This document shows, piece by piece, positions 1,017 to 18,387 of a stretch of DNA of 26,064 bases (positions are counted from its first letter, which is position 1; the number at the start of each line of letters is the position of its first letter). The stretch comes from an uncultured Solimonas sp. (GTDB lineage: Bacteria > Pseudomonadota > Gammaproteobacteria > Nevskiales > Nevskiaceae). The notes under the pieces are model-generated. The model was given only the letters and a program-made list of their open reading frames with translations, was not told where the DNA came from and did no database searches. The stretch covers positions 1 through 26,064 of the forward strand of contig CAMLDZ010000038.1 of assembly GCA_946478985.1 (NCBI GenBank), read 5' to 3'. The translations under genes were made by a program, and so were the position numbers.

Positions 1017-1346
1017 CTAAGGCCCGACCAGGATCAGCTTGCCGGTTTTCGGATCGCGGTAGACCTGCCCCACCGGTTCCATGCCGGCGCCGCCCTGCTG
1101 GCCTTTCATGCTGTCCGGCAGATCAGCCAGCTCCTTGCCCTGCTGCACCGTCTGCTGCGGCGCGCCGGGTTGCCCGTCGACCTGTCCGGGCGCGGTGGTG
1201 CTGAACAGCTGCGGCTGCGCCGACACCAGCGCGACGATCAGCGCGCAGATGAACACCAGCATGATGTCGACCAGATTGACAAGCGAGGCCTGCGGGTCTT
1301 CCGGGGTTTCATCGAAGCGCGAATAGCGACCCCAGCGACGCTTCAC
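1017..1346 (-). CDS. DUF2149 protein, ExbD/TolR-like partner of the proton channel
   Basis: The 109-residue protein has a short basic N terminus and one membrane helix at about residues 22-42 (SLVNLVDIMLVFICALIVAL). A Pro/Gln/Gly-rich linker follows, and the end is a small domain finishing VYRDPKTGKLILV. The helix resembles the ExbD/TolR segment (FIDVMLVLL), with Asp27 where those proteins carry their proton-binding Asp. The domain family (PF09919-like) is typically found beside CobN-like chelatases and ExbB-like proteins. The GTG start overlaps the ExbB-like stop by 4 nt (GTGA), so the two are translationally coupled. By analogy it is the rotor or stator partner in a proton-driven complex; that is inference. 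HmuV of the Bacteroidota haem loci is a likely relative. Confidence 0.85.
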   Translation of the reverse strand: MKRRWGRYSRFDETPEDPQASLVNLVDIMLVFICALIVALVSAQPQLFSTTAPGQVDGQPGAPQQTVQQGKELADLPDSMKGQQGGAGMEPVGQVYRDPKTGKLILVGP

Positions 1347-1783
1347 GAGGCGCGCTCCCAGCGGCTCAGCGCCTCGTCGTACCAGCGGCGGCGCAGGCGG
1401 CCGACGACGAAGCCGACCAGGCCCGCGGCCAGACCCAGCACCGTGGTGTCGAAAGCGGTGTGCATCGCTTCCGCCAGCACTTTGAGTTCACCCCCGGACA
1501 ACGCCGTCAGTCCCGGGCCGAGCGAGATCAGCGTCGCCATCAGGCCGAGCATCGGCGCGCTGCGCGTGAGAATGTCGGCGCGCTCGATGCGCCGATGCGC
1601 GCGACGCTCGACCGCCGCCAGATCCAGCGGCGGCGCACGACGGCGCAGCGCGAAGCGCTCACCGATCGTCAGGCCGATGTCGAGACAGGCCGCCGCGGCG
1701 GCGGCAAACAACAGCGCGATCGTCGGCCACAGCAGCAGCGGCACGAGTTCATGTGTCCAGTCGATCAGCGGGGTCACGCTCAT
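1343..1783 (-). CDS. MotA/TolQ/ExbB proton-channel family protein
   Basis: The 146-residue protein has three predicted membrane helices: about 13-37, 76-95 (APMLGLMATLISLGPGLTAL) and 113-130 (TVLGLAAGLVGFVVGRL). The last two match the TolQ/ExbB/MotA pore helices. Threonines 113-114 head the third helix, near the region where ExbB and TolQ carry their conserved pore Thr. It is shorter than ExbB (about 240 residues), with a reduced cytoplasmic loop. The ATG at 1783 has a good ribosome site (AAGGA, 6-nt spacing); a TTG two codons upstream is rejected. It sits 160 bp downstream of cobN on the same strand. In Bacteroidota hmu loci a CobN-like HmuS is encoded with the same two partner families. The likely role is energising the membrane-anchored CobN. 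Confidence 0.85.
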   Translation of the reverse strand: MSVTPLIDWTHELVPLLLWPTIALLFAAAAAACLDIGLTIGERFALRRRAPPLDLAAVERRAHRRIERADILTRSAPMLGLMATLISLGPGLTALSGGELKVLAEAMHTAFDTTVLGLAAGLVGFVVGRLRRRWYDEALSRWERAS

Positions 1784-1817
1784 TGGCAATCCTTGTCGTC
1801 CATCTTGGTTGTTTCAC

Positions 1818-1851
1818 CATGTAGCCCGGTCCGTCTGCGCGGAACCGGGCC
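1818..1851. repeat. REP-like hairpin (GTAGCCCGGT...)
   Basis: The sequence GTAGCCCGGT, a short CG-rich loop and GGAACCGGGCCAC form a hairpin with CCCGGT/ACCGGG arms. It lies in the gap between cobN and the ExbB-like gene, next to a second, larger inverted repeat. Confidence 0.6.
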
Positions 1852-1867
1852 ACCCGCATCGTCCGTC

Positions 1868-1957
1868 GTAGGGCGGGTCAGGCCGCAGGCCGTAACCCGC
1901 CGCCGGTCTCCGGCGCGACTTTGCGACGGCGGGTTACGCTGCGCTAACCCGCCCTAC
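1868..1957. repeat. Inverted GTAGGGCGGGT repeat pair behind cobN
   Basis: The left arm begins GTAGGGCGGGTCAGG and contains GTAACCCGCC. The right arm contains GGCGGGTTACGCTGCG and ends TAACCCGCCCTAC. Each arm can fold on itself and the two can pair with each other. The element overlaps the end of cobN: the last codons and the TAG stop (1944-1946) are made of repeat sequence. Such elements often stabilise or separate transcripts; the effect here is not known. Confidence 0.75.
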
Positions 1958-4900
1958 CGGAATCGGCGTTCGGTTTGCGGGCCGCACCACGATCGAAGCC
2001 GCGGTAAAAGCCGAACAGCAGCAACGCCACCAGCAGCGCGAGCGCGGCATACAGCACGCGGCTCTGCATCTGTTCGCCGCCCTGCTCGCTGGCCTTGGCT
2101 TCCGCCTGCTGCTGCGCATCGGCATCGTCCGTCTGCAGTTCGCTGATCGTGCTCGGCGCCTCAAGCTTGGCCTCGGCTTCGACGCGCGCCTTGTCGAGCA
2201 TCTGCTTCAGCGGCTCGCGCTGGTCGTCGCGCAGGTAGGGCTGCACCCACTCGAACACCGGATGATCCGGCCGCGTGTGGCCGCTGCCGGGCAGGCCGGC
2301 CTTAAGCAGCAGATCGACCCACTGCTGGCCGAGCTGCTTGAGCGTCGCCTCGTCCGCCTGCCAGAAGCCCTTCTCGGCGGCGACCATCAGGATCGCCATC
2401 ATGTTGGTCTTCACATGGACATTGCTGCCCTGCTCCAGGAACTGGTCGAGGCCGAGCTGATAGCGGTCGTCCAGATAGACGGATTTCACCTCGTCCCAGG
2501 CCCAGCTCTTGATGATGTCCGGGTTCGTCACCTGCCAGCCCCACAGGTATTCGACGAACTCGCTGCCCATGGTCCGCGCGCCGGCGTAGCCGTGCTGCAT
2601 CAGCGGACGAATCCACGCGGGGTTCAGATAGCGGCCGCGCAGCTCGCCGAGCAGCGCCGCCTGCAGCGGCTGCATCTCCGGCTTGTCGGGATCGGAGCTG
2701 TCGATAACGTGGCTGGCCGGCACCTTGCCCTTCAGCGTCTCGACCGCGAGGCTCAGGCCGCCGAGGTAGTCGAAGGCATCGTTGTTGTCGATCAGGCCGT
2801 AGAGATTGCTGGCGCGACCGAGATACGTGTTGTCGACGCGCTTGAGGTTGCGCTCCAGCAGCGCGTGCTGCGGCGCGCCGCCGCCGTCGCTGGATGAATA
2901 GGCATGGCCGATGCGGTTGATGTACGCCGCCGACAGTTCCTTGCGATCGGTCCAGGCGCCGCTGCGCTCGGCAAGCCGATTGATGCCGGCGCCGTAGTCG
3001 CCCGGCGCGGTACCGAACACGCGCAGCGCCGCCTGCGGACCGGCCTTGTCGAGGCTCAGGCCGCTGCCGAGCAGCGCCTCGGTTTCCTCGATCCAGTGCT
3101 GGGCGACGCGGTTCTTCGCCAGCGGCTCCTCGCCCGGTTCTTCGAGCGGACCCAGCGGCGCCAGCGCCGCTGCGAGCGCTGCGGCCAGCTTCGGCTTCTG
3201 CTTCTCGATGGTCTTGCGGCTGCCGTCCAGCGCCAGCAGCACGGCCTTGTCGAGCCAGCCGATCTGGTTGCCGAACAGATCGCGGAACAGGCCGGACGAG
3301 ACGAACAGCGTGTCGGCGCGCAGCTTCACGTCGGCCAGCGGCCGGCGTTTGAGCGCGGTGACGATGCCGCGGCTGTTCCACACCGGCTCGATGCCGAGCA
3401 GCGCCAGACCGAAGCCGACCATCGCGCCCTCGTCGCGCACCGAGTCGGAGGCCCAGAGGATCACCGCCTCCTTGCCGTCTGGCTTGGCCTTGGCGCGCGC
3501 TTCCACCGCCATCTTCTCGCCGAGCTGATAGCCGAGCCGCGACGGGATCAGGCTGTTGTCGAGACCGTGGAAATTGCGGCCGGTCGGCAGCGCGTCGGCA
3601 TTGCGCAGCGGATCGTTGCCCGGTCCGGGTTTGACGAAGCGGCCGTTGAGACCGCCGAGCAGCGCAGCCATTTCGCTGGCCGGCGACGCGGCGAGCCGCG
3701 CGCGGATGCCGGCGTCGTTCGTCTGCATCGACTTCAGCATGATCGCCAGCGCTTCCGGCTTCCAGTCGCGGCCGAAGACGTGCAGGCCCAGCGGCATGTA
3801 GTCCTCCTGCAGCTGGGTCAGGTAGTGACCGATCTCGTGCACCAGCAGTTCGTCGTCGGCCTGATCGAAGCTGATGCCGCGCACCTGCAGCTCGGCGTCC
3901 ATGCTCTCGGTCAGCGCCTCGCGCAGCTTGAGTGCATCGATCAGCTCGCGCATGCCGCGCGCGGCATCGCTGCGCACGGTCGGGTTGTTCGAGGCCTCGA
4001 AGCTCTCGACCAGCTGGCGCAGCTTGAGCAGATCGTCGTACAGCGGCGTGGCGGCCAGCGGCGGCGTCAGGTGGTCGATCATCACCGCCAGGCCGCGGCG
4101 CTTGGCCTGCAGGCCCTCGCCGACACCGTCGACGATGTACGGATACAGGCCCGGCACGTCGGCGGCGATGGCTTGCGGAAAGTCGAACTCGTCCTGGCCG
4201 ACGCTCTTGCGCGGCAGGAACTCGTAGGTCGAGTGGCGGCCGAGATGGATGATCGCGTCGGCGTGAAAGTCATCGCGCAGCCAGTGGTAGAACGCGAGGT
4301 ACTGGTGGGTCGGCGCGATCGTGGTGTTGGCGTGCAGCAGTTCCTCATTCAACTCCCAGCCGCGCGGCGGCTGCGGACCGATGAAGACCTTGCCGAAGCG
4401 CAGGCCCGGCAGCACCAGCTTGCCGACGTGAACCATGATGCGGCCCGGCGCCGCGCCCCAGCCGCGCAGGCCCTCGATGCCGGTGGCGATCAGCGCGCGG
4501 CTGAGCTGCGCCACCTGCTGCTCGTTGCCGCCACGGCTGATGCGGACTTCGTAAGCGGCTTCGAGCTGCGTCAGCAGATCGAGCGCGCGATTGCGCGCGG
4601 CATGCTGCGCGCCCTCGACCATGTGGCGCAGTTCCTTGATCGTGTGTTCGACCTGCTCGCGTGCGCCCTGCGGTGCGCGCGCGGCCAGCGCGGCGTCGAC
4701 CGCGGCCTGCAGGCGACCAAGCGGACCATCGACCACTTCACCGCGGATCGCCGACGGCAACGTGTCGAACCAGCGCGCGTAGTCGGCGGCCTTCACCGTC
4801 GTCACGCGCCGCGCCATCTCGGTCAGCGCGTCATTGGCTTCCGGCAAATTGACGCCATCGCGCTGCAGCTTGTCGAGCAGTTCTTCGGAGGTCTTCGGCA

Positions 4901-6233
4901 GCGTGCCGGTGTCGTAGCCGGCGGCCTTGAGCTGCTGCAGGATCTGCAGCAGCGAGGCCGGTACGTCGAGATTGTCGGCGCCGATGTTGTGCCGGCCCGG
5001 CGGGTGGTTGTAGTAGACGATGGCGACGCGCTTGTCGGCGTTCTTCTGCGTCTGCAGTTTTACCCAGCGCGCGGCGCGCGCGGTGAGCTGGCCGATCTGC
5101 GCAGGCAGCGGCGCGATCCGCGACACCGCCATGCCGGTCAGCGCATCGACGCCGGCCGGCGCCGCGGTGGCGACGACGATCGCCTGCGAAGCACCCTGCA
5201 GTTCCGGCATCGAGATCCGGTAGTAGACGCTGTCCCAGGCCAGGCCCTGCGCCGACGCGCGCCAGGCGGCGGCGGTGGTGTCGTGCAGGCGGATGCCTTT
5301 CAGCACGGGCACATCAAGTTCGGTCAGCAGCTGTGCGGCGGCGCGGCTGTCGCTGCTGCCGCCGATCAGGAAGTCCTGCAGCGAGATCACCGCGCCGAGT
5401 CTGGCGCCGAGCTTTTCCTTGAGCACCCGCAGCGCCTGCGTGCTGGACTCGCCCCAGCGCGCGCGCAGCTGCAGGCAGTCGAGCTGCTGCGCCTTTAGCG
5501 CCGCACAGATCGCGCGGCCGGTGTCGTCGTCGGCGCGCTCCTGATCAAGCAGCGCCACCACTTTGCGATGGCCGCCGAGCTTTAGCTCTTCAGGTGCGAC
5601 CGTCGCGTCGTTCCAGATCAGACGCAGCGCCTGCGCATCCTCGACGGCGGCGGCGCCGCTGCGACCGAGCAGATGTGCGAACAGCGACAGCAGATTGCGC
5701 TCGCCGCGGTTCTGCCAGTAGCCGCGCACGGCGATCCACGGTGCCTGCCGCGGATGCGCGCGACTGGCCTCGGCGACCCAGGCGGCGCTCGACGCGGTAT
5801 CGGTCCTGGCTGACGACAGCTGGTCGTAGAGCGGATCGGCAGGCGCGAACAGCGCCTTGCCCTGCCAGCGGCTGCGGCGGCCCAGATCGGTGTCGCCGGC
5901 CACCGCGATCACGTTTTTCGCCGGCAGCGTGTCGAGCAGCGGCAGCACGCGCTGGGCGCTGTCCTTGAACAGGTTGGCAAGCAGGATCGCGTCAGCATCG
6001 GCGAGCAGCTTGCGCAGCTCGTCGGCGGACAGCGCATCCATCTGCTCGGAGGTGCGGAACACCAGGCGGTCGCCGGGGTTCTGGGTGTGGAAGCGCTGCG
6101 CGGCCTCGGTCATGCCTTCAGAGCTGCGCTCGGAGACGATCGCCACCAGCGTCGCCGCGGAACCGAGGCCGGACCAGCCCAGCGCCAGAAACGTCAACAG
6201 CAGGGCGCAGGCGCGCCGCGACAGCATTTTCAT
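1944..6233 (-). CDS. cobN: CobN-like chelatase large subunit, exported and membrane-anchored
   Basis: The 1429-residue protein belongs to the CobN/BchH/ChlH family, whose classical members insert Co or Mg into tetrapyrroles. Family blocks seen include GKVFIGPQPPRGWE, HLGRHSTYEFLPRK (663-676), ILWASDSVRDEGAMVG, SSGLFRDLFG and LNPAWIRPLMQHGYAGA. Unlike the cytoplasmic biosynthetic CobN, it starts with a signal peptide (MKMLSRRACALLLTFLALGW, cleavage near residue 26). It ends with a Glu/Gln-rich linker and a hydrophobic helix at about 1389-1408, followed by a basic tail. This implies a large periplasmic domain anchored in the inner membrane. The ATG at 6233 has GGTGGA 5 nt upstream. It lies behind a cobalamin riboswitch and is followed by ExbB-like and DUF2149 genes. 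HmuS, a haem dechelatase homologue, is the closest known layout. The substrate (corrinoid, cobalt or haem) cannot be told from sequence. Confidence 0.9.
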   Translation of the reverse strand: MKMLSRRACALLLTFLALGWSGLGSAATLVAIVSERSSEGMTEAAQRFHTQNPGDRLVFRTSEQMDALSADELRKLLADADAILLANLFKDSAQRVLPLLDTLPAKNVIAVAGDTDLGRRSRWQGKALFAPADPLYDQLSSARTDTASSAAWVAEASRAHPRQAPWIAVRGYWQNRGERNLLSLFAHLLGRSGAAAVEDAQALRLIWNDATVAPEELKLGGHRKVVALLDQERADDDTGRAICAALKAQQLDCLQLRARWGESSTQALRVLKEKLGARLGAVISLQDFLIGGSSDSRAAAQLLTELDVPVLKGIRLHDTTAAAWRASAQGLAWDSVYYRISMPELQGASQAIVVATAAPAGVDALTGMAVSRIAPLPAQIGQLTARAARWVKLQTQKNADKRVAIVYYNHPPGRHNIGADNLDVPASLLQILQQLKAAGYDTGTLPKTSEELLDKLQRDGVNLPEANDALTEMARRVTTVKAADYARWFDTLPSAIRGEVVDGPLGRLQAAVDAALAARAPQGAREQVEHTIKELRHMVEGAQHAARNRALDLLTQLEAAYEVRISRGGNEQQVAQLSRALIATGIEGLRGWGAAPGRIMVHVGKLVLPGLRFGKVFIGPQPPRGWELNEELLHANTTIAPTHQYLAFYHWLRDDFHADAIIHLGRHSTYEFLPRKSVGQDEFDFPQAIAADVPGLYPYIVDGVGEGLQAKRRGLAVMIDHLTPPLAATPLYDDLLKLRQLVESFEASNNPTVRSDAARGMRELIDALKLREALTESMDAELQVRGISFDQADDELLVHEIGHYLTQLQEDYMPLGLHVFGRDWKPEALAIMLKSMQTNDAGIRARLAASPASEMAALLGGLNGRFVKPGPGNDPLRNADALPTGRNFHGLDNSLIPSRLGYQLGEKMAVEARAKAKPDGKEAVILWASDSVRDEGAMVGFGLALLGIEPVWNSRGIVTALKRRPLADVKLRADTLFVSSGLFRDLFGNQIGWLDKAVLLALDGSRKTIEKQKPKLAAALAAALAPLGPLEEPGEEPLAKNRVAQHWIEETEALLGSGLSLDKAGPQAALRVFGTAPGDYGAGINRLAERSGAWTDRKELSAAYINRIGHAYSSSDGGGAPQHALLERNLKRVDNTYLGRASNLYGLIDNNDAFDYLGGLSLAVETLKGKVPASHVIDSSDPDKPEMQPLQAALLGELRGRYLNPAWIRPLMQHGYAGARTMGSEFVEYLWGWQVTNPDIIKSWAWDEVKSVYLDDRYQLGLDQFLEQGSNVHVKTNMMAILMVAAEKGFWQADEATLKQLGQQWVDLLLKAGLPGSGHTRPDHPVFEWVQPYLRDDQREPLKQMLDKARVEAEAKLEAPSTISELQTDDADAQQQAEAKASEQGGEQMQSRVLYAALALLVALLLFGFYRGFDRGAARKPNADSGRAG

Positions 6234-6292
6234 CAGGTTCCACCCGCCGTGTGACATCGTCATCGGGCGACGTGGGGGCTTTTGATGGTGGC

Positions 6293-6335
6293 GGCGCGTG
6301 AGGCGGGCGCAGACACGACCGGCGCCCGCCGCGCC
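6293..6335 (-). promoter_or_regulatory. Strong hairpin between the cobalamin riboswitch and cobN
   Basis: On the minus strand, GGCGCG and GGGCGC are followed, after an 11-nt loop, by GCGCCC and CGCGCC, giving a two-part GC-only stem. It sits just 3' of the aptamer and about 60 bp before the cobN start, where an expression platform is expected. No U-run follows, so it is not a typical intrinsic terminator. Confidence 0.45.
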
Positions 6336-6348
6336 ACGCTCGACATGC

Positions 6349-6576
6349 TCAGGCCGGTCTCCGGACTCGTCGCAAGCGCCTCAACTGAAGCGAACCGCGA
6401 CACGCCTTCCCATGCGGCGATGCACAGTGGCGGGCGCAAACCGGGCGGCTTGCGTTGTCGCGATCCTGGCCCGGACCGGCGCCAGCTTTACGATCACCGT
6501 TGCGGGGGCAGCGCAGGATTCACACCTGCTTCCCGTTGAACCCTTGAAGGAGACACGCTCCCCGCCGGGCACCTGA
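6349..6576 (-). promoter_or_regulatory. Cobalamin riboswitch upstream of cobN
   Basis: Read on the minus strand, the conserved blocks occur in order: AACGGGAA, GGTGTGAATCC, GCGCTGCCCCCGCAACGGTGA, GCCACTGTG, GGGAAGGCG and the B12 box AGTCCGGAGACCGGCC. A TCAGG...CCTGA pairing can close the outer stem. Riboswitches of this kind normally reduce expression when adenosylcobalamin or a related cobalamin is plentiful. It lies in the 5' leader of cobN, beginning about 30 bp after the predicted promoter -10 box. Confidence 0.95.
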
Positions 6577-7123: not shown

Positions 7124-8788
7124 TCAAGCACGCATCGCAGCGTGGTCGTCGGCCGGTTCGCAGGCGCGCAGGGCATCGTCAAAACCGCCGTGGTAGCGCC
7201 GGCGGCCGTCGCGGCGCGCCAGGCCGGCGCGGATCAGCTTGCGCAGCACACTGCGCCGCGCCTCACATAGCAGCACATGCACACCACGGCGCTCAAGCCG
7301 CGTGATCGCTTCCTCCAGCGTCTGCATGCCGGTGATGTCCATGAACGGCACGCGCGCGAGACGGATGACGATATGACATGGATCGGTATGCGTCTGTTGC
7401 AGCGCGCGTTCGAGATTTTCGACGGCGCCGAAGAAAAACGGTCCGTCGATCGAATAGACCATCGTGCCGGGCGGCAACTGCGCGCGGCCGGCATCCTGCA
7501 GCTCGCGCTGCAGCTCGCGCTCGGCCAGCGGCGCGACTTCCACCGACTGCGACATCCGGCGCAGGAACAGCAGCATCGCCAGAATCACGCCGACGTTGAC
7601 GGCGACCACCAGATCGGCGAACACCGTCAGCAGGAAAGTCACCACCAGGATGATCGTGTCGGCGCGCGGGGCCTTGCGCAGCATCCAGACGAATCGGTGC
7701 GCCTCGCTCATGTTCCAGGCGACGACGAACAGGATCGCCGCCAGCACGCACAGCGGCACGCGGCCGGCCAGCGGCGCGAGCAGCAGCAGGATCAGCACCA
7801 GCACCAGCGAATGAACGATGCCGGCCAGCGGACCGGTCGCGCCGTTGCGGAAGTTGGTCGCGGTGCGGGCGATCGCGCCGGTCGCCGCAAAGCCGCCGAA
7901 CAATGGCGCGACCAGATTGGCGATGCCCTGGCCGATCAGCTCCTGGTTGGAATCGTGGCGCGTGCCGGCCATGCCGTCGGCCACTACCGCCGACAGCAGT
8001 GATTCGATGGCGCCGAGCATCGCGATCGTGAACGCCGACGGCACCAGGCTGATCAGCCGCTCGAAGCTGAACGCCGGCAGCGTCAGCGACGGCAGGCCCT
8101 GCGGAATGCCGCCGAAGGCGCTGGCGATCGTCGCCACGCCATCGAAGCCGAACGCCGTCTGCAGCGCGGTGACGACCAGCATCGCCAGCAGCGGTCCCGG
8201 CACGCGCGCAAGGCCCGGGACGCGCGGCCCGCAGAGCACGACCAGCAGACTCAGCAGCGCCAGCGCGGTAGTCGCCGGATGCAGCGACGGCAAGGCCTCC
8301 AACAGATGCAGCAGCTTGTCGTGGAAATGCGCGCCCTGGATCTTCGGCAGGCCGAAGAAGTCCTTCCACTGGCCGGTCCAGATGATCACGCCGATGCCGG
8401 CGGTGAAGCCGACGATCACCGGATCGGGGATGTAGCGCAGCACGCCGCCGAAGCGCGCCAGGCCCAGCAGCACGAGGATCAGGCCGGCCATCGCCGTCGC
8501 CAGCAGCAAGCCGTCGACGCCGTGCTGGGCGGTGACACCGGCCAGGATCACGACGAAGGCGCCGGTCGGGCCGGCGATCTGGATGCGGCTGCCGCCGAAC
8601 AGCGAGACGATCAGGCCGGCGACGATCGCCGTGTAGATGCCCTGCTCCGGCTTGACGCCGGAAGCGATCGCGAAGGCCATCGCCAGCGGCAGCGCGACGA
8701 CGCCGACGATCGCGCCGGCGACGATGTTGCGCAGCCAGTGCTCCGGCCTGAACAAACCCGCCCGCGCCGCCTCGACGATCGCGATCAT
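7124..8788 (-). CDS. SulP family inorganic anion transporter with STAS domain
   Basis: The 554-residue protein (with the ATG at 8788) has a SulP membrane domain of roughly 10-14 helices, including the signature LPLAMAFAIASGVKPEQGIY and the GGSRIQIAGPTGAFVVI block. A C-terminal cytoplasmic STAS domain (about residues 425-530) carries PFMDITGMQTLEEAI, the loop equivalent to the phosphorylation site in anti-sigma antagonists. SulP proteins carry sulfate, bicarbonate or other anions. No carbonic anhydrase, sulfate-assimilation or other substrate clue is nearby, so the substrate is open. A second in-frame ATG at 8800 is possible. It forms a likely pair with the DUF2970 gene and separates the two riboswitch-controlled B12 units. 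Confidence 0.92.
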   Translation of the reverse strand: MIAIVEAARAGLFRPEHWLRNIVAGAIVGVVALPLAMAFAIASGVKPEQGIYTAIVAGLIVSLFGGSRIQIAGPTGAFVVILAGVTAQHGVDGLLLATAMAGLILVLLGLARFGGVLRYIPDPVIVGFTAGIGVIIWTGQWKDFFGLPKIQGAHFHDKLLHLLEALPSLHPATTALALLSLLVVLCGPRVPGLARVPGPLLAMLVVTALQTAFGFDGVATIASAFGGIPQGLPSLTLPAFSFERLISLVPSAFTIAMLGAIESLLSAVVADGMAGTRHDSNQELIGQGIANLVAPLFGGFAATGAIARTATNFRNGATGPLAGIVHSLVLVLILLLLAPLAGRVPLCVLAAILFVVAWNMSEAHRFVWMLRKAPRADTIILVVTFLLTVFADLVVAVNVGVILAMLLFLRRMSQSVEVAPLAERELQRELQDAGRAQLPPGTMVYSIDGPFFFGAVENLERALQQTHTDPCHIVIRLARVPFMDITGMQTLEEAITRLERRGVHVLLCEARRSVLRKLIRAGLARRDGRRRYHGGFDDALRACEPADDHAAMRA

Positions 8789-9004
8789 GCCTTCACCCAT
8801 CCAACACACGTTATGTGCATATGATGATCATATCATCGGCATTGCCGCTGGAACCCAGCCTGCGGGGAGAAGGTGCCCGATGAGCGGATCAAAGGCCGCT
8901 TTCGAGTACACGTGCGCGTCCGGCGCGCCCTTCACCCGCGTTTGGACAAGCCGGGGAGTGGCTCGATGTCGCTGCCCAGCTCACCTTCAGATGCATGCCG
9001 CCGA
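8789..9004. other. Intergenic region between SulP and the btuM promoter
   Basis: No gene is supported here. An AT-rich patch (8812-8838, including ATGATCAT) stands out in this GC-rich DNA and is likely to hold the SulP promoter on the minus strand, but no clean -35/-10 pair could be chosen. At 8861-8887 there is GCGGGGAGAAGGTGCCCGATGAG, which resembles one half of the CCCTCATCCGGC repeat. The rest shows no recognisable signal. Confidence 0.5.
8861..8887. repeat. Degenerate partial copy of the REP-like element
   Basis: TGCGGGGAGAAGGTGCCCGA followed by TGAGCGG matches the right half of the element (GCGGGAGAAGGTG...GATGAGGG) found complete elsewhere in the window. No left arm is visible. Confidence 0.45.
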
Positions 9005-9034
9005 CTGTCGCGAGCGCGGTCGCGGTGCTAAAGT
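9005..9034 (+). promoter_or_regulatory. Predicted promoter of the btuM-cob operon
   Basis: An extended -10 box, TGCTAAAGT (TAAAGT at 9029-9034), is preceded 18 bp upstream by the weak -35 CTGTCG (9005-9010). The implied start, near 9041, is just before the cobalamin riboswitch. Confidence 0.45.
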
Positions 9035-9045
9035 CCGCGCCGTTA

Positions 9046-9230
9046 CGGATGCCTGCATCGCTCCACTCGATGCAGGTGAAACGGGAAGCCGGTGACGTCT
9101 CCAGACCCTGGACACCAGCCCGGCGCTGCCCCCGCAACGGTAAGCGAGAGACGGACTCCCATCGCCACTGCGCAACGCGCGGGAAGGCAGAGATCCGAAG
9201 CCTGCACTCGCGAGCCCGGAGACCGGTCCG
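9046..9230 (+). promoter_or_regulatory. Cobalamin riboswitch upstream of btuM and the cob operon
   Basis: The conserved blocks run in order: AAACGGGAAGCCGGTG, GCGCTGCCCCCGCAACGGTAAG, GCCACTGCG, CGGGAAGGCAGA and the B12 box AGCCCGGAGACCGGTCC. The outer stem can form from CGGATGCC and GGTCCG. It ends about 80 bp before the btuM start. It probably represses the whole downstream operon when cobalamin is plentiful. Confidence 0.95.
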
Positions 9231-9312
9231 CAACGAACCGAAGATGCGCGGAGGGCGTGTCGATTCGGGATGCTTTGCCAACGCGCCGCGCGCGCAGCCA
9301 GGAGTCTTTGCG

Positions 9313-9882
9313 ATGAACCTTTCCCGTCCGGTGCAGTTCGGCGTCATGGGCGCGCTCGCGCTGCTGATGATCGCCACGCGTGGCCAGCACTTCGCCAGCG
9401 TCGATGCGCTGCCGAGCGCCTCGTGGGCCGTGTTCTTCCTGGCCGGCCTGTTCTTCCGCCCGCTCTGGGGCTTCGCCGCGCTGTTCGCGCTGGCCACGGT
9501 GCTCGACCTCGCCTCGCTGAAGAACGGCACCGTCACCCAGTGGTGCCTGTCGCCGGCCTACTGGGTGCTGCTGCCGGCCTACGGCTCGCTGTGGTTTGCC
9601 GGCCGCCTGTACAGCTCGATCCATCGCGATGAACTGCGCACGCTGCTGCCGCTGGCCAGCACGCTGGCGGCCAGCGGCTTCGTCGCCTACCTGTGCTCGG
9701 GCGGCGGCTTCTACTTCTTCTCGGGCCATTACCCGGATGCCAGCCTGGCCGAGTTCGCTGCGCGCATCGCCCAGTACTACCCGCACTCGACCAGCGTGAT
9801 GGCCGGCTATGTGATCGTCGCCGCCGTCGTCTACGCCACGCTGCGCCTGCTGGCGCCGCGCGGCGAGCTGGCCCGCGCCTGA
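9313..9882 (+). CDS. btuM: BtuM-type cobalamin transporter (solitary ECF S-component)
   Basis: The 190-residue protein has about six hydrophobic segments. The family signature is present: DLASLKNGTVTQWCLSPAYW followed by LLPAYGSLWFAGR, and later SGGGFYFFSGHYPD. Cys78 in the TQWCLSPAY block lies where the characterised Thiobacillus denitrificans BtuM has the cysteine that ligates cobalt of cobalamin. That protein imports B12 without an ECF ATPase module and removes cyanide from cyanocobalamin. The start is the ATG at 9313 with AGGAG 8 nt upstream. It is the first gene behind the riboswitch and is followed 13 bp later by cobO. No ECF ATPase or T-component genes lie in the window, which fits a solitary S-component. 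The likely role is inner-membrane uptake of cobalamin or precursors. Confidence 0.85.
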   Translation: MNLSRPVQFGVMGALALLMIATRGQHFASVDALPSASWAVFFLAGLFFRPLWGFAALFALATVLDLASLKNGTVTQWCLSPAYWVLLPAYGSLWFAGRLYSSIHRDELRTLLPLASTLAASGFVAYLCSGGGFYFFSGHYPDASLAEFAARIAQYYPHSTSVMAGYVIVAAVVYATLRLLAPRGELARA

Positions 9883-9895
9883 GACGCTCACGCGG

Positions 9896-10519
9896 GTGAG
9901 CGAACCAGAAGACGCGCTCGCCGCACGCCATCGCGTGCGGATGCTGCGCAAGAAGCAGGTCATCGACAGCAAGATCGCCGCGGCCACCGAGGACCGCGGC
10001 GTTCTTTTGGTCAACACCGGCAACGGCAAGGGCAAGAGTTCGGCGGCGTTCGGCATGGTCGCGCGCGCGCTCGGCCACGGCATGAAGGTGGGCGTCGTGC
10101 AGTTCATCAAGGGCGCGATGTCGACCGGCGAGGAACGGTTCTTCCGCAATCTGCCCGGCCTCGAAGGCCGTCTCGACTGGCACGTGATGGGCGAAGGCTA
10201 TACCTGGGAAACCCAGGACCGCTCGCGTGACATCGAGAAGGCGCAAGCCGCCTGGCAGATCGCCGCACGCATGCTCGCCGACGAGGCCTACGGGCTCGTG
10301 GTGCTCGACGAACTCAACATCGCGCTCAAGCACCGCTACCTCGACGTGCAGGAGGTGGTGCGCGTGCTGCTGTCGCGCCCGGACCTGCAGCACGCCGTCG
10401 TCACCGGCCGCGCCGCGCCGCCGGAGCTGATCGAGGCCGCCGACACCGTCAGCGAGATCGCCGTGCTCAAGCACGCCTTCCAGTCCGGCATCCGCGCGCA
10501 GAAAGGCGTCGAGCTGTGA
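9896..10519 (+). CDS. cobO: Cob(I)yrinic acid a,c-diamide adenosyltransferase
   Basis: The 207-residue protein belongs to the CobO/CobA/BtuR family. It transfers the 5'-deoxyadenosyl group of ATP to the cobalt of reduced corrinoids, forming the upper ligand. The P-loop NTGNGKGKSSAAFG is at residues 40-53, and VVQFIKGAM and the VVLDELNIAL block are in place. The N-terminal helix (RHRVRMLRKKQVIDSKIA) is the segment that covers the corrin in the Salmonella enzyme. The start is GTG. Length matches the family (about 200 residues). The stop overlaps the cobB start by 4 nt (GTGA). It is the second gene of the operon and also serves salvage of incoming corrinoids delivered by BtuM. Confidence 0.96.
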   Translation: MSEPEDALAARHRVRMLRKKQVIDSKIAAATEDRGVLLVNTGNGKGKSSAAFGMVARALGHGMKVGVVQFIKGAMSTGEERFFRNLPGLEGRLDWHVMGEGYTWETQDRSRDIEKAQAAWQIAARMLADEAYGLVVLDELNIALKHRYLDVQEVVRVLLSRPDLQHAVVTGRAAPPELIEAADTVSEIAVLKHAFQSGIRAQKGVEL

Positions 10520-11841
10520 GCGCCGCGGTCGGCAGCGGCCCGGCCGCGCGCTGCCGCGCGCTGCTGGTCTCGGCACCGGCGTCGAACCAGGGCAAGACCA
10601 CCGTCACCAGCGCACTGGCGCGCCGTGCGCGGGAGGCCGGCCTGCGCGTGCGCTGCTTCAAGACCGGCCCGGATTTTCTCGACCCGATGCTGCTGGAGCG
10701 TGCGTCCGGCGCGCCGGCCGAACAGCTCGACCTGTGGATGGTGGGCGAGTCCAATTGCGTGGCACGGCTGCACGCGGCGGCGCAGGACAACGACCTGATC
10801 CTGATCGAAGGCGTGATGGGCCTCTACGACGGCGCGCCGTCGAGCGCCGACCTCGCGCGCCGTTTCGGCGTGCCGGTGCTGGCGGTGATCGACGGCAGCG
10901 CGATGGCGCAGACCTTCGGCGCGCTGGCGTTCGGACTATCGCGCTATCAGGACGGTTTGCCCCAAAAAATGCTGATGCACGGCGTGATCGCCAACCGCGT
11001 CGGCTCGACGCGCCACGGGCAGATGCTCAAGGACAGCCTGCCGGCGCCGCTGCACTGGCTCGGCGCGCTGCCGCGCGATCCGGCGTATCAGCTGCCGGAA
11101 CGCCATCTCGGCCTGGTGCAGGCCGCCGAGATCGCCGACATCGATGCGCGTATCGACGCCGCTGCTGCTGCGCTCGGTGACGCGGTCGACTTCGCTCAAA
11201 TCCCCGAGATCGAGTTCGCTGCGCCGCTCGCCGAAGCGCCACCGCCGCTGCTGCGCGGCAAGCGCATCGCCATCGCCCGCGATGCGGCGTTCTCGTTCCT
11301 CTACCCCGCCAACCTCGACACGCTGCGCGCGCTCGGCGCCGAGTTGGGCTTCTTCTCGCCGCTCGCCGACACCGCGCCGCCGGAATGCGACGCCGTGTAT
11401 CTGCCGGGCGGCTATCCGGAACTGCATGCCGGAACGTTTGCCGCCAACACGGCGATGCACGCCGCGCTGCGCGCGCACCGCGATGCCGGCAAGCCGCTGC
11501 TCGCCGAGTGCGGCGGCATGATGTCGCTGTTCGAGACGCTCGCCGACCGTGACGGCCGCGAGCACGCGATGGCCGGCCTGCTGCCGGGCGCAACGACGAT
11601 GCGGCCAAAACTGCAGGCGCTCGGCCTGCAGGCCGTCGACACGCCGGACGGCGAGCTGCGCGGTCACAGCTTCCATTACTCGGAGCTGCGCACGCCGCTG
11701 CAGCCGCAGGCGCGCGGTCGCAATCCCAATGGCGGCAAGACCGCCGAGGCGATCTACCGCGACGGCGCGCTGACCGCGTCCTACGTGCATTTCTACTTCG
11801 CGTCGAACCCGGTCGCCGCGGCGCGGCTGTTCGGCGCCTGA
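10516..11841 (+). CDS. cobB: Cobyrinate (hydrogenobyrinate) a,c-diamide synthase
   Basis: The 441-residue protein has an N-terminal dethiobiotin-synthetase-like ATPase domain with P-loop SAPASNQGKTTV (19-30) and FKTGPDFLDP. Its C-terminal class I glutamine amidotransferase domain carries the nucleophile Cys332 in LLAECGGMMSLFE and a late HSFHYSE block. The enzyme amidates the a and c side chains of cobyrinic or hydrogenobyrinic acid using glutamine and ATP. Whether it acts before or after cobalt insertion depends on the pathway, which the window does not show. It starts at a GTG overlapping the cobO stop and ends 7 bp before bluB. The length is normal for the family. Confidence 0.95.
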   Translation: MSAAVGSGPAARCRALLVSAPASNQGKTTVTSALARRAREAGLRVRCFKTGPDFLDPMLLERASGAPAEQLDLWMVGESNCVARLHAAAQDNDLILIEGVMGLYDGAPSSADLARRFGVPVLAVIDGSAMAQTFGALAFGLSRYQDGLPQKMLMHGVIANRVGSTRHGQMLKDSLPAPLHWLGALPRDPAYQLPERHLGLVQAAEIADIDARIDAAAAALGDAVDFAQIPEIEFAAPLAEAPPPLLRGKRIAIARDAAFSFLYPANLDTLRALGAELGFFSPLADTAPPECDAVYLPGGYPELHAGTFAANTAMHAALRAHRDAGKPLLAECGGMMSLFETLADRDGREHAMAGLLPGATTMRPKLQALGLQAVDTPDGELRGHSFHYSELRTPLQPQARGRNPNGGKTAEAIYRDGALTASYVHFYFASNPVAAARLFGA

Positions 11842-11848
11842 AGCGGCG

Positions 11849-12502
11849 ATGAGCGCGCATCGCTTCGAGGCCGGCGCAGTCGACGCGGTCTATCACGCGA
11901 TCCACCAGCGCCGCGACATGCGCCACTTCGCCGGCGGCAGCATCGCGCCGGACACGCTGCGCCGCCTGCTCGAAGCCGCGCATGCGGCGCCCAGCGTCGG
12001 CCTGTCGCAGCCCTGGCGGATCGTGCGGATCACCGATGCCGCGCTGCGTGGCGCCATCCACACGCTGGTCCACGACGAGGTCGCGCGCACCGCCGACGCG
12101 CTCGGCGCGCGCCGCGACGAATTCCTCGCACTGAAAGTCGAAGGCATCCGCGACTGCGCCGAGCTGCTGGTGGTCGCCGTAGACGACGGCGGCGCGCAGG
12201 AGATCTTCGGCCGCCGCACGCTGCCGGAGATGTCGCTGGCCTCCGCCGCCTGCGCGATCCAGAACCTCTGGCTCGCCGCGCGCGCCGAAGGGCTCGGCCT
12301 GGGCTGGGTATCGATGTTCGAACCCGGCGAACTGGCCACGCTGCTGAACCTGCCGACGCGCGCCAAGCCGATCGCCGTGCTGTGCCTGGGGCCGGTCGAG
12401 CAGTTCTACGCCGCACCGATGCTGCAGCTGGAGCGCTGGCGCGAGCCGCGCCCGCTCGCGGCGTTGCTGTGCGAGAACCGCTGGACGGACGCCACGCCAT
12501 GA
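11849..12502 (+). CDS. bluB: 5,6-dimethylbenzimidazole synthase BluB
   Basis: The 217-residue protein has a nitroreductase-like flavin fold. Hallmarks are YHAIHQRRDMRHF near the N terminus, HAAPSVGLSQPWRIVRI and LGLGWVSMFEP. BluB breaks down its reduced FMN with oxygen to make 5,6-dimethylbenzimidazole, the lower ligand of B12. Its presence indicates an aerobic or oxygen-tolerant host making true cobalamin. It starts with an ATG 7 bp after cobB, and its stop overlaps the next gene by 4 nt (ATGA). The product feeds CobT, encoded downstream in the same operon. Confidence 0.95.
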   Translation: MSAHRFEAGAVDAVYHAIHQRRDMRHFAGGSIAPDTLRRLLEAAHAAPSVGLSQPWRIVRITDAALRGAIHTLVHDEVARTADALGARRDEFLALKVEGIRDCAELLVVAVDDGGAQEIFGRRTLPEMSLASAACAIQNLWLAARAEGLGLGWVSMFEPGELATLLNLPTRAKPIAVLCLGPVEQFYAAPMLQLERWREPRPLAALLCENRWTDATP

Positions 12503-13314
12503 GCTTCATCGCGCGCGGCCCGCAGCGCATCGTCTGCATGACCGAGGAGACCACCGAGACGCTGTACCGGCTCGGCGAGCAGGACCGCATCGTCGGCATT
12601 TCCGGCTTCACCGTGCGGCCGCCGCAGGCGCGCAAGGAGAAGCCCAAGGTGGCCGCGTTCACCAGCGCCAGGATCGAGCGCATTCTCGAACTCAAGCCGG
12701 ATCTGGTGCTCGGCTTTTCCGACCTGCAGGCCGACATCGCCGCCGAGTTGATCCGCGCCGGCGTCGCGGTGCAGATCTTCAACCAGCGCAGCGTCGCGGA
12801 CATCTTCGAATTCATCGCCATGCTCGGCGCGATGGTGCGCGCGCCGCAGCGCACGCAGGCGCTGCTCGACGAGCTGCAGCGCAACGTCGATGCCGCAGGA
12901 GAGGCAGCCGCGCGCCTGCCGCAGCGGCCGCGCGTGTTCTTCGAGGAATGGGACGAACCGATCATATCCGGCATCCGCTGGGTCGCCGAGCTGATCGAGA
13001 TCGCCGGTGGCAGCGACTGCTTCCCGGAACTGTCGTGCGAAGCTAGCGCCAGGCGGCGCATCATCGAGGACAGCGCAAGGATCATCGAACGCGCGCCGCA
13101 GCTGATCATCGGCTCCTGGTGCGGCAAGAAGTTCAAGGCCGAGAAAGTTGCGGCGCGGCCCGGCTGGGACGTGATCCCGGCAGTGCGCGACGGACGCCTG
13201 GCCGAGATCAAGTCCTGCGACATCCTGCAGCCGGGTCCGGCCGCGCTCGGCGACGGCCTCGCGCAGCTGAGCCGCTTGATCACCGCCACCGCGCGCGGCG
13301 AAGCTTTGCCATGA
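12499..13314 (+). CDS. Cytoplasmic BtuF-like cobalamin-binding protein
   Basis: The 271-residue protein has a periplasmic-binding-protein type III fold (PF01497-like). It opens with RIVCMTEETTETLYRLGEQD and VGISGFTVRPPQA, followed by ILELKPDLVLGFSDLQ. BtuF has the same opening pattern. There is no signal peptide: the chain starts MSFIARGPQRIVCM with no hydrophobic stretch, so it should remain in the cytoplasm. No BtuC or BtuD genes are in the window. The ATG overlaps the bluB stop and its own stop overlaps cbiB, so it is tightly held within the operon. Relatives of this form appear to be conserved in proteobacterial cob operons. A role as a cytoplasmic corrinoid carrier or sensor is inference. 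Confidence 0.85.
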   Translation: MSFIARGPQRIVCMTEETTETLYRLGEQDRIVGISGFTVRPPQARKEKPKVAAFTSARIERILELKPDLVLGFSDLQADIAAELIRAGVAVQIFNQRSVADIFEFIAMLGAMVRAPQRTQALLDELQRNVDAAGEAAARLPQRPRVFFEEWDEPIISGIRWVAELIEIAGGSDCFPELSCEASARRRIIEDSARIIERAPQLIIGSWCGKKFKAEKVAARPGWDVIPAVRDGRLAEIKSCDILQPGPAALGDGLAQLSRLITATARGEALP

Positions 13315-14261
13315 GCGCCTTGCTGATCACTGCCGCCGTCGCCGCCGACACGATCCTCGGCGAACCGCGCCGTGGCCATCCGCTGGTGGCGTTCGGCCGC
13401 TATGCAAAAGCGCTGGAAGCGCGCCTGCATCCCGGCGAGGCTGCGGACAGAAGCCGGGCCCGCCAGCGCGGCGCACTGGCGCTGCTGCTGGCCGTAGCGC
13501 CGGCGACACTGGCCTGCGCGCTGTTGCTGGCGCTGACCGCACGCTGGCCGCTGCTGAGTGCGCTGATCGAGATCACCGTGCTGTATTTCACCATCGGCCA
13601 CCGCAGCCTGCGCGATCACGCACGCGAGGTCTGGATCGCGCTGCGCCGCCAGGATCTGCCCGAGGCGCGACGCCGCGTCGGCATGATCGTCAGCCGCGAC
13701 TGCTCGCAGCTGGACGAAACGCGCGTCGCCGCCGCCGCGATCGAATCGGTGCTGGAAAACGGCAGCGACGCGGTGTTCGGCGCGCTGTTCTGGTTCGCCG
13801 TCGCTGGCGCACCCGGCGCACTGGCCTATCGCCTGATCAACACGCTCGACGCGATGTGGGGCTACCGCACGCCGCGGCATCTGCATTTCGGCTGGGCGGC
13901 GGCGAAGCTCGACGATCTGGTCAACTGGATCCCGGCGCGACTGACCGCGCTGAGCTATGCGCTCGCCGGCCACGGCGCCGACGCCCTGCACTGCTGGCGC
14001 ACGCAGGCGCCGGCCTGGGACAGCCCCAACGGCGGCCCGGTGATGGCGGCCGGTGCCGGCGCGCTCGGCCTCAGCCTCGGCGGCAGCGCGCGCTATCACG
14101 GCCAGCTCAAGAAGCGGCCCTCGCTCGGCTGCGGCCCGGCCCCGGTCGCCGACGACATCCGCCGCGCGCTGTCGCTGCTGCTGCGCGCGCTGACGATCTG
14201 GCTGGCGGCGCTGCTGGTCGTCAGCGTCGTCGTCACCCTGCTGGTGCGCGGCCATGCTTGA
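13311..14261 (+). CDS. cbiB: Adenosylcobinamide-phosphate synthase (CbiB; CobD in Pseudomonas naming)
   Basis: The 316-residue integral membrane protein opens AAVAADTILGEPRRGHPLVAFGR, the typical CbiB start. Other family blocks are ARRRVGMIVSRDCSQLDE, AAAIESVLENGSDAVFGALFW, INTLDAMWGY and WDSPNGGPVMAAGAGALGL. It attaches aminopropanol (or its phosphate) to adenosylcobyric acid, giving adenosylcobinamide or its phosphate. At least four hydrophobic segments are visible. It starts at an ATG overlapping the previous stop by 4 nt and overlaps the next gene by 8 nt. It partners the threonine-phosphate decarboxylase encoded immediately after. Confidence 0.95.
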   Translation: MSALLITAAVAADTILGEPRRGHPLVAFGRYAKALEARLHPGEAADRSRARQRGALALLLAVAPATLACALLLALTARWPLLSALIEITVLYFTIGHRSLRDHAREVWIALRRQDLPEARRRVGMIVSRDCSQLDETRVAAAAIESVLENGSDAVFGALFWFAVAGAPGALAYRLINTLDAMWGYRTPRHLHFGWAAAKLDDLVNWIPARLTALSYALAGHGADALHCWRTQAPAWDSPNGGPVMAAGAGALGLSLGGSARYHGQLKKRPSLGCGPAPVADDIRRALSLLLRALTIWLAALLVVSVVVTLLVRGHA

Positions 14262-15333
14262 GCACGGCGGCAGACTGCGCCGCGCCGCACAGCAGTACGG
14301 CATCGCCCTTGGCGACTGGCTGGATCTGTCGACGGGCATCAGTCCGTGGAGCTGGCTCGACGATCGCGCCTGCGCGATCGAGGTGCGGCACTGGTCGCGG
14401 CTGCCGGAGGACGAGGACGGCCTCGAAGCGGCGGCGCAGCGCTACTACGGCGCCGCCGCGCTGGCGGTCGCCGGCTCGCAGGCGGCGATCCAGATGCTGC
14501 CGAGGCTGCGCGCGCCATCACGCGTCGGCGTGCTGCGGCCCTGCTATGCCGAGCATGCGCAGGCCTGGCGGCAGGCTGGCCATGCGGTCGCTGCACTGCC
14601 GCGCGAGGTGCTGCTGGAGCAGATCGATGCGCTCGACGTCGTCGTGCTCGCGCATCCCAATAATCCCGACGGCCAGCGCTACACACGCGACGAACTGTTG
14701 GCCCTGCATGCGCGGCTCGAAGCACGCGGCGGCTGGCTGCTGCTCGACGAAGCCTTTGTCGACGCGGAGCCTGATGCCAGCCTCGCCGCCGATGCGCATC
14801 GCCCCGGCCTGATCGTGCTGCGCTCGCTCGGCAAGTTCTTCGGCCTGGCCGGCGCGCGCGTCGGCTTCGTGCTCGCCGAGGCGTCGCTGCGCGCGCGGCT
14901 GCGCGACATGCTTGGCCCTTGGCCGCTGTCCGGGCCGGCACGGCTGATCGCCACGCAGGCGCTCGACGATCGTGACTGGCAGCGGACGCAAGGCGCACGG
15001 CTGCAGGGCGCCAGCGCCGAGCTGGCGCAGGCTCTGCGCGATGCAGGCCTTGCGCCGGACGGCGGCTGCGCGCTGTTCCAGTGGCTGCGCCACCCGCAGG
15101 CCGCGGCGCTGCACGCGGCGCTGGCCAGCCTGGGCGTGCTGACGCGGCTCTGCGACGACGGTGCCAGTCTGCGCTTCGGTCTGCCGCGTGATGCGCGGGA
15201 ACTTGAACGGCTGCGCGTGGCGCTGCGGCCCTCATCCGGCGCGGTGCGCCACCTTCTCCCGCAAGCGGGAGAAGGTAGGAATCATCAAGCCCCTCGACCG
15301 CCTGCGGCAGAGGGCTTCGGGGTGAGGGCATGA
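14254..15333 (+). CDS. cobD: L-threonine-O-3-phosphate decarboxylase (CobD; CobC in Pseudomonas naming) with repeat-derived tail
   Basis: The 359-residue protein is a PLP-dependent fold-type I enzyme of the aminotransferase class. It shows [12 protein letters not shown] near the start, [22 protein letters not shown], and the PLP lysine Lys194 in [17 protein letters not shown]. It makes the aminopropanol phosphate used by CbiB. The natural fold appears to end near LERLRVALR (residue 325). Residues 326-359 are translated from a REP-like repeat (15229-15328), giving a low-complexity tail beginning [11 protein letters not shown]. Without the repeat the protein would have about 325-330 residues, normal for the family. 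The stop overlaps cobQ by 4 nt. Confidence 0.93.
15229..15328. repeat. REP-like palindromic element, copy 2, inside the cobD-cobQ junction
   Basis: This copy begins CCCTCATCCGGCGC, contains a perfect CCTTCTCCCGC/GCGGGAGAAGG hairpin, and ends TTCGGGGTGAGGG. It is read through in frame as the last 34 codons of cobD. Its final GGTGAGG lies directly before the cobQ ATG and may act as its ribosome site. The second module has degenerated (CCGCCTGCGGCAGAGGG). Confidence 0.85.
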
Positions 15334-16799: not shown

Positions 16800-17326
16800 G
16801 CACGACGCCACGCAGCCTGATTCTCGGCGGCGCACGTTCCGGCAAGAGCCGGCTCGCCGAACGGCTCGCGCAGGACAGCGGGCTGGAAGTGGTCTACATC
16901 GCCACCGCCGCGGCCGGTGACGGCGAGATGGGCGCGCGCATCGCCCGGCATCGCGCCGAGCGGCCGGCACACTGGCGCACGGTCGAACAACCGCTGGCGC
17001 TGGCCGCCACGCTGAAGAACGAGGCGCGCGCCGGTCGCTGCATCCTCGTCGACTGCCTGACCTTGTGGCTGAGCAATCTGCTGCTCGCCGACGATGGCAC
17101 GCTGGCGCGCGAGCGCGATGCGCTGCTCGATGTCTTCACCACCCTGCCCGGCCAGCTGCTGCTGGTCAGCAACGAAACCGGCCTCGGCATCATTCCGCTC
17201 GGCGAACTGACGCGCCGCTACGTCGATGAAGCCGGCCGTCTCCATCAGCAACTGGCGGCGCGCTGCGAGCGCGTCGTCTTCTGCGTCGCCGGCCTGCCGA
17301 TGACGCTCAAAGGACCCGCACCGTGA
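16796..17326 (+). CDS. cobU: Bifunctional adenosylcobinamide kinase / adenosylcobinamide-phosphate guanylyltransferase (CobU/CobP)
   Basis: The 176-residue protein has the P-loop [12 protein letters not shown] (11-22). His52 in [15 protein letters not shown] matches the guanylylated histidine of Salmonella Cob[12 protein letters not shown] and [19 protein letters not shown] are further family blocks. It phosphorylates adenosylcobinamide and then activates it with GTP to adenosylcobinamide-GDP. It overlaps cobQ and cobT by 4 nt each. In Pseudomonas clusters the same position is occupied by cobP. Confidence 0.96.
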
Positions 17327-18381: not shown

Positions 18382-18387
18382 CGCATC

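Follow-up and report, generated by a model that had tools for sequence, protein, structure and literature searches.

Among the CobN-type chelatases, the members with a known activity either strip iron from heme or place cobalt in B12. The canonical CobN of CobNST is described as a cytoplasmic protein that has ATP-driven partners and is encoded in a ring-synthesis operon (PMC7689651). HmuS of the hmuYRSTUV operon of Bacteroidota strips iron from heme (PMC12583661), and HmuU and HmuV are the products of the ExbB-like and DUF2149 genes of that operon (PMC10434189), HmuV being reported to resemble ExbD in both sequence and predicted structure and called diagnostic of heme transport (PMC10100974). 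Related gene sets are described in P. aeruginosa, where the Zur-controlled operon PA1922-PA1925 encodes a receptor, a CobN-like protein, an ExbD-annotated protein and DUF2149 (PMC9431628, PMC4542158), in G. lovleyi, whose CobN is said to have no CobS/CobT and to adjoin TonB genes (PMC3403914), and in B. fragilis, where Hmu-like operons with a cobalamin riboswitch were proposed in 2023 to serve cobalamin metabolism (PMC10100974). Here we analysed a stretch of 26,064 nucleotides (nt) from an uncultured Solimonas sp. (contig CAMLDZ010000038.1; hereafter the window), in which a cobalamin riboswitch heads the genes of a CobN-like, an ExbB-like and a DUF2149 protein. The CobN-like protein belongs to a separate, unstudied branch, named here class B, which probably helps bacteria to use scavenged B12-type molecules. 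We propose, with a rough probability of 0.42, that it is a CobN-type chelatase which is anchored in the inner membrane, faces the periplasm and serves corrinoid salvage specifically; it would be proton-powered and would most likely insert cobalt. The features of the locus are as follows:

6591-6335, minus strand: cobalamin (B12) riboswitch aptamer, leader of cobN (RF00174, full model 1-189)
6263-1944, minus strand: class B CobN-like chelatase of 1439 amino acids (PF02514, 806 bits; hydropathy; tree)
1868-1957, no strand assigned: palindromic element resembling repetitive extragenic palindromes, between cobN and exbB (nested inverted repeats)
1789 (TTG) or 1783 (ATG) to 1343, minus strand: ExbB-like proton-channel protein (PF01618, 35.5 bits; alignment with ExbB/TolQ)
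1346-1017, minus strand: DUF2149 protein, ExbD-like, with one transmembrane (TM) segment containing Asp (PF09919, 57.1 bits; alignment with TolR/ExbD)

The riboswitch scored 78.6 bits (E 4.5e-18), where the gathering score is 31.5, and the ATG of cobN lay 71 nt past its end; folding of the leader beyond the aptamer was uninformative (z -1.5). CobN-Mg_chel (PF02514) was the sole Pfam family matched by the 1439-amino-acid protein. The ExbB-like and DUF2149 genes overlapped by 4 nt, and about 160 nt, including the palindromic element, separated cobN from exbB, two open reading frames that overlapped or were at most 26 nt apart in 10 of the 11 relatives compared (407 nt in the other, L046). A preliminary description of this DNA had placed the riboswitch and the three genes on one strand and had recognised the two partner families of the hmu operon. 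Both statements were borne out, all four elements being on the minus strand with PF01618 and PF09919 beside cobN, and its coordinates were right within 15 nt, the riboswitch extending 15 nt past the end given there.

As in HmuS, HmuU and HmuV, a CobN-superfamily protein that appears exported and anchored is thus accompanied by ExbB-like and DUF2149 proteins. Class B differs from HmuS in forming a separate clade (~24% identity) and in missing the HmuS heme ligands and His1209, and from hmuYRSTUV in having a B12 riboswitch together with cob genes; genes for HmuY and HmuT were not seen. With canonical CobN it shares the superfamily fold and a His and Asp metal site, but the identity is 27-29% and the canonical protein is cytoplasmic, with no export segment, whereas class B is of the export type. 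By annotation, PA1922-PA1925 also has an exported-type CobN trio in a metal-uptake context, under zinc control unlike the window; PA1923, compared by annotation alone, may be guessed to belong to class A (see below). The cluster on the G. lovleyi plasmid pSZ77 (L059) likewise has CobN, ExbB and DUF2149 genes behind cobalamin riboswitches and beside cobalamin genes, two such riboswitches (L059 3155-3621) preceding a receptor-DUF2162-ExbB-DUF2149-CobN string; however, its protein is on the class A side, and the receptor, DUF2162 and a separate ExbB-ExbD-TonB set distinguish it from the window. The word riboswitch is absent from the main text of the paper on this plasmid. The B. fragilis operons, compared by their description and not by sequence, are also of the CobN type under a cobalamin riboswitch, but they are from Bacteroidota and the account of them describes no cob salvage genes. 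The preliminary description made no mention of the published cobalamin riboswitches in front of Hmu-like operons (PMC10100974), and class B operons do not fit the use of HmuV as a diagnostic of heme transport. PMC6460266 credits Rodionov 2003 with BtuS, a third type of CobN-related protein besides CobN and ChlH; class B separated from canonical CobN in a tree that lacked ChlH. We found no publication that states either a proton-driven chelatase or an exported CobN of the B12 type, in a search that mostly did not reach subscription papers. What is added here to this close prior art is a separate B12 branch within the exported CobN/ExbB/DUF2149 systems.

A quick tree built from 40 rows over 865 columns was rooted on the canonical rows, lacked ChlH and came with a long-branch warning; in it, the window protein and 22 relatives formed one branch (class B, SH-aLRT 100). 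HmuS grouped at 88 with 11 further CobN-like proteins that are exported and have DUF2149 close by (class A), and three canonical CobN rows made up the third group. A 414-amino-acid cobN fragment (L050), the truncated or split cobN genes of L005 and G338, and L081 were kept outside the tree and the motif table. Sequence matches of the window protein in the PDB were about equal for CobN (9uk9, 348 bits), ChlH (342) and HmuS (321), and no NCBIfam CobN or BchH model reached its cut-off (best 571 of 1248; TIGR02257 507 of 822). Judged by its sequences, class B is a branch of its own, neither canonical CobN nor HmuS. The earlier claim that this is not an ordinary CobN was supported by the separate clade, the missed CobN cut-offs and the export-type segments. 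The signature HxGRHST was present in all 120 best homologues of the 859 found; Marinobacter L058, which reads VYVGRHST and DNDDGFDFQGG and so misses the first His, was excluded from one signature count. By name, the sources of class B were Gammaproteobacteria plus metagenome-assembled genomes (MAGs) called Nitrospirales, Nitrospinota and Acidobacteriota; Azotobacter vinelandii also encodes a class B protein (P0103). The nearest relative found was from a Hydrocarboniphaga MAG (L005, 87% over 645 residues), followed by Steroidobacter and Peristeroidobacter.

The equivalent of HmuS His538, the catalytic His of HFGTHG, was retained in every alignment row. The HmuS site-1 heme ligands Met79 and His254 were absent, the window protein having Leu and Gly in the alignment, and all 37 class B rows carried Asp instead of His1209. 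The HmuS motif LSLDHxxEFMGG (His1209 and Glu1212), kept in 118 of 120 HmuS relatives, was not found in the window protein, which reads IDNNDAFDYLGG with Asp and Asp at these positions. According to the alignment, the metal-site pair of class B is His and Asp, as in CobN. As a measure of the methionine-rich insertion of HmuS, the most Met within 60 amino acids was a median of 4 (3-7) in class B and of 7 (7-13) in HmuS. These replacements, together with the corrinoid gene neighbourhood, agree with the earlier statement that the protein is not of the heme type. A supposed loss of the lid residue His506 was withdrawn, because the class B His lies one residue earlier (95 of 95 parsed proteins, of 120). 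Canonical CobN was the nearest modelled structure. A model of residues 590-1345 was poor over the first 150 of them, the part that contains the catalytic His.

The signal peptide and C-terminal helix of the CobN-like protein were assigned from hydropathy as the sole basis. The window protein had an N-terminal hydrophobic stretch after basic residues and another near the C-terminus followed by a basic tail, and neither segment was present in the three canonical CobN rows. Full-length sequences made up 117 of the 120 best homologues, and 98 of these passed both terminal thresholds (107 the N-terminal, 108 the C-terminal), while internal 70-amino-acid stretches of the same homologues passed them in 221 and 15 of 2016 cases, respectively. 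The CobN-like protein is thus predicted by hydropathy to be exported and anchored in the inner membrane, as previously suggested for the window protein and here extended to its homologues.

When the window protein was searched against 369 gammaproteobacterial genomes, 41 had any match and 12 had a class B gene, a label given where long stretches were at least 48% identical, the other matches being shorter and of 47% or less. The exbB-like and DUF2149 genes lay beside the class B gene in all 12, with an extra tetrapyrrole methylase gene between the two in L044. A cobalamin riboswitch was found at the head of the co-directional string in 9 of the 11 assessable class B genomes; none headed the strings of G148 and G261, and G005, cut inside cobN, was not assessable. 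The Steroidobacter-type relatives L001-L004 all had the riboswitch in the same place and the trio (4/4), in L040-L045 and L082 the trio was followed by cobO, bluB or both, and the order in L081 was receptor, cobN, exbB, DUF2149, btuF-like, btuC-like, btuD-like, cobB, cobO, cobQ. Most riboswitch-headed class B trios adjoined BtuB-like receptors and cobO/cobB/bluB; the L043 receptor scored 545 bits with the B12-receptor model TIGR01779, under the cut-off of 600. In contrast, a riboswitch headed the string in only one of the 12 class A loci (G. lovleyi L059); in L061 one lay downstream of DUF2149, and the remaining ten had none in the stretch scanned. B12 control, part of the preliminary description, was therefore seen both in the window and in the relatives.

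Fourteen class B host genomes (5 + 9, with G293 and G338 outside the set and completeness not given) were tested for the corrin-ring markers CbiC and CbiJ. CbiC was absent from 5/5 and 6/9 genomes and CbiJ from 11/14, the same 11 hosts lacking both. The class B gene was the only CobN-family gene in 11 of the 14 (all 9 later genomes plus G003 and G005), a second one being of class A in G002 and canonical in G001 and G004. CobT never exceeded its cut-off in 16 class B genomes, which gave three weaker matches, and CobS was not searched for. Nine of the 11 hosts with class B as sole CobN had no CobT match, and G003 and G148 had matches only below the curated cut-off. Since class B is mostly the sole CobN and CobT was never over the cut-off, the class B protein is probably not the inserting subunit of an ordinary aerobic pathway in these hosts, and the possibility raised earlier, that a sole CobN works there with CobS/CobT partners, was not what the relatives showed. 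Two Steroidobacter-type hosts in which CbiC and CbiJ were not found nevertheless encoded canonical CobN, in G004 (L076, G004:C1:1-20000; TIGR02257 1584 bits) with CbtA and two riboswitches nearby and in G001 (L078, G001:C364) with a ChlI-type ATPase. The class B system as a substitute for BtuCD was not favoured, FecCD-type permeases being present in 14/14 class B genomes; this permease family also serves siderophores. A relative of a cobalamin transporter in the window also weighs against that reading. CobB as a sign of incomplete-corrin salvage was dropped (over its cut-off in 126 of 274 genomes, CbiC in 29 of 274).

In the scheme that we propose, scarce B12 would permit, through the riboswitch, synthesis of the CobN-like protein, and BtuB-like receptors would carry corrinoids into the periplasm. 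A corrinoid could then be bound in the superfamily cavity, the metal being handled by His677 together with the Asp that occupies position 1209 of HmuS. Cobalt would most likely be inserted into metal-free or wrongly metallated corrins, which BtuFCD or another carrier would move on to CobO/CobB/CobQ. The ExbB-like and DUF2149 proteins would replace the cytoplasmic AAA+ motor (CobST, ChlID), the cycle being driven by the proton gradient. In its most specific form, a proton-gradient-powered cobaltochelatase with ExbB/DUF2149 in place of CobST, which would load metal-free or mis-metallated corrins with cobalt in the periplasm and so open to corrin auxotrophs B12 precursors closed to others, the scheme is doubtful. 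The preliminary description had named cobalt or corrinoids, and not heme, as substrate; the B12 control and the missing heme ligands agree with this, suggesting that corrinoids are the substrate class. Of the two directions that it had named, insertion and removal, we favour with modest confidence the insertion of cobalt into corrins that are scavenged without a metal or with a wrong one, because attempts to take cobalt out of B12 derivatives by chemical means had been unsuccessful according to a paper that also reports metal-free hydrogenobalamin from Chromatium (PMC5103170), and because the gene is turned on when B12 is short. Cobalt insertion into imported cobalamin has also been speculated for Chlorobium (PMC8620254).

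Several points weigh against the scheme. We found no example of metal-free corrin salvage; the best-studied exported relative removes metal instead of inserting it, and, when purified, turns heme over in vitro, so that a motor may be dispensable (PMC12583661). Three of the 14 hosts have CbiC and CbiJ near the trio, in the same cluster. The region of the catalytic His was poorly modelled, and the DUF2149-ExbD homology was weak by sequence. Finally, the class B loci L038 and L039 had no riboswitch, and BLAST with the corrinoid genes of the window matched none within ~20 kb of them. After the L039 trio, a thiamine pyrophosphate riboswitch (14347-14477) and a receptor gene were observed.

It is rather unlikely, although it would explain the B12 control by the need of cobalt for B12, that the protein is a cobalt-scavenging dechelatase freeing periplasmic Co(II) from a TonB-imported chelate, as HmuS does with iron and PA1923 maybe with zinc. 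The trio is also known as a Zur-controlled set in P. aeruginosa (PMC4542158, PMC9431628) and from heme operons, stands beside urease-accessory and hyp genes in Runella, and in G. lovleyi lies behind cobalamin riboswitches and beside the DUF2162 membrane gene; the three hosts with ring genes in the same cluster also fit. However, cobalt supply alone would not help to make B12 in the 11 of 14 hosts without CbiC and CbiJ, where freed cobalt would be unusable for new corrin, so that plain cobalt supply is unlikely as the role there, and no cobalt permease was recognised in the class B strings, inspected by eye with no search made. The Runella class A trio (L060 3443-10700) is flanked by a urease accessory gene on one side and hypC/D/E on the other, an arrangement suggestive of nickel.

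Hydropathy predicted three membrane segments in the ExbB-like protein and one in the DUF2149 protein. The single N-terminal TM of the DUF2149 protein begins with Asp (NLVDIMLVF), aligning with TolR/ExbD (YIDVMLVL), and this Asp was present in 16 of 17 DUF2149 rows (Glu in L060), while the Thr region of ExbB was retained in the third TM of the ExbB-like protein. Comparison of DUF2149 with ExbD by hhalign gave a probability of 24.7 (p 7.9e-4) over only 20 columns, and the PDB ExbD matches (E 1.2 and 3.9) lay amid stronger unrelated ones. There were 19 DUF2149 matches in 18 of 274 genomes, all near a CobN-family gene, although in L052 about 4 kb off on the other strand and in L050 beside the cobN fragment. 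The pair could instead act as an additional energiser of TonB on behalf of the corrinoid receptor, with the CobN-like protein binding or chelating corrinoid without a motor. This is unlikely: HmuU and HmuV have been assigned to TonB-driven import in the published view (PMC10100974) and the L040 string holds both a receptor and a TonB gene, but the constant proximity of DUF2149 to CobN, the receptor-less strings headed by cobN in the window, L001-L004, L042, L045, L046 and G338, and Marinobacter L058, whose class B protein lacks the C-terminal helix and which has a receptor gene yet neither partner in the 20 kb read, argue against it. Because DUF2149 accompanied CobN in 19/19 cases and the ExbB-DUF2149 pair stands side by side with a complete ExbB-ExbD-TonB set in G. 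lovleyi, a motor serving the chelatase is favoured. The TM Asp in common with ExbD/TolR also speaks for the proton gradient as the drive of the chelatase, which is, from sequence comparison, speculative.

That the protein strips cobalt from imported corrinoids, as an exact cobalt analogue of HmuS, is improbable. HmuS, the closest exported relative of known activity, does remove metal (PMC12583661), and a PepSY_TM protein encoded beside the trio in L005 is a possible periplasmic reductase; yet the gene would be on when B12 is short and corrinoid destruction makes no sense, chemical cobalt removal had failed (PMC5103170), and most hosts tested could not rebuild the ring. A heme dechelatase under coincidental B12 control, which would fit the superfamily and partner families common to HmuS, is highly improbable given the absent Met79 and His254, the Asp in place of His1209 and the corrinoid gene neighbourhood.

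If corrinoid salvage by a class B chelatase is correct, a B12 branch would be added to the exported CobN-type chelatases, with a predicted corrinoid step between BtuB and BtuFCD in hosts that, among those tested, are mostly unable to make the corrin ring. The powering of a large chelatase where ATP is lacking would become testable. Proteins of this kind are annotated as cobaltochelatase CobN, a trap in that they could be mistaken for a sign of aerobic B12 synthesis. In L047 (8547-12446), a class A protein that is exported and linked to DUF2149 passed NF004644, 'cobaltochelatase subunit CobN', with 1756 bits (cut-off 1248), which is likely an annotation trap.

The following neighbours were found in the window:

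51-470: HopJ-family gene (PF08888), also beside the locus in L005 (79% identity)
7124-8809, minus strand: SulP-type permease, upstream of cobN on its strand
9030-9245, plus strand: second cobalamin riboswitch, head of the corrinoid salvage operon (RF00174, 102.7 bits)
9313-9882, plus strand: membrane protein, relative of a cobalamin transporter whose structure is known, first gene of the salvage operon (PDB 8c7p, E 3.7e-38)
9896-19679, plus strand: corrinoid salvage genes (NCBIfam and Pfam matches)

The salvage genes were cobO, cobB, bluB and those for a BtuF-like protein, CbiB, threonine-phosphate decarboxylase, cobQ, cobU, cobT, ribazole phosphatase and cobalamin synthase, the ribazole phosphatase and BtuF matches being below the NCBIfam cut-offs. 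In the Hydrocarboniphaga MAG, a riboswitch beside the trio headed two TonB-dependent receptors and the PepSY_TM protein (L005 4468-10655); the counterpart of this string would fall past the left edge of the window.

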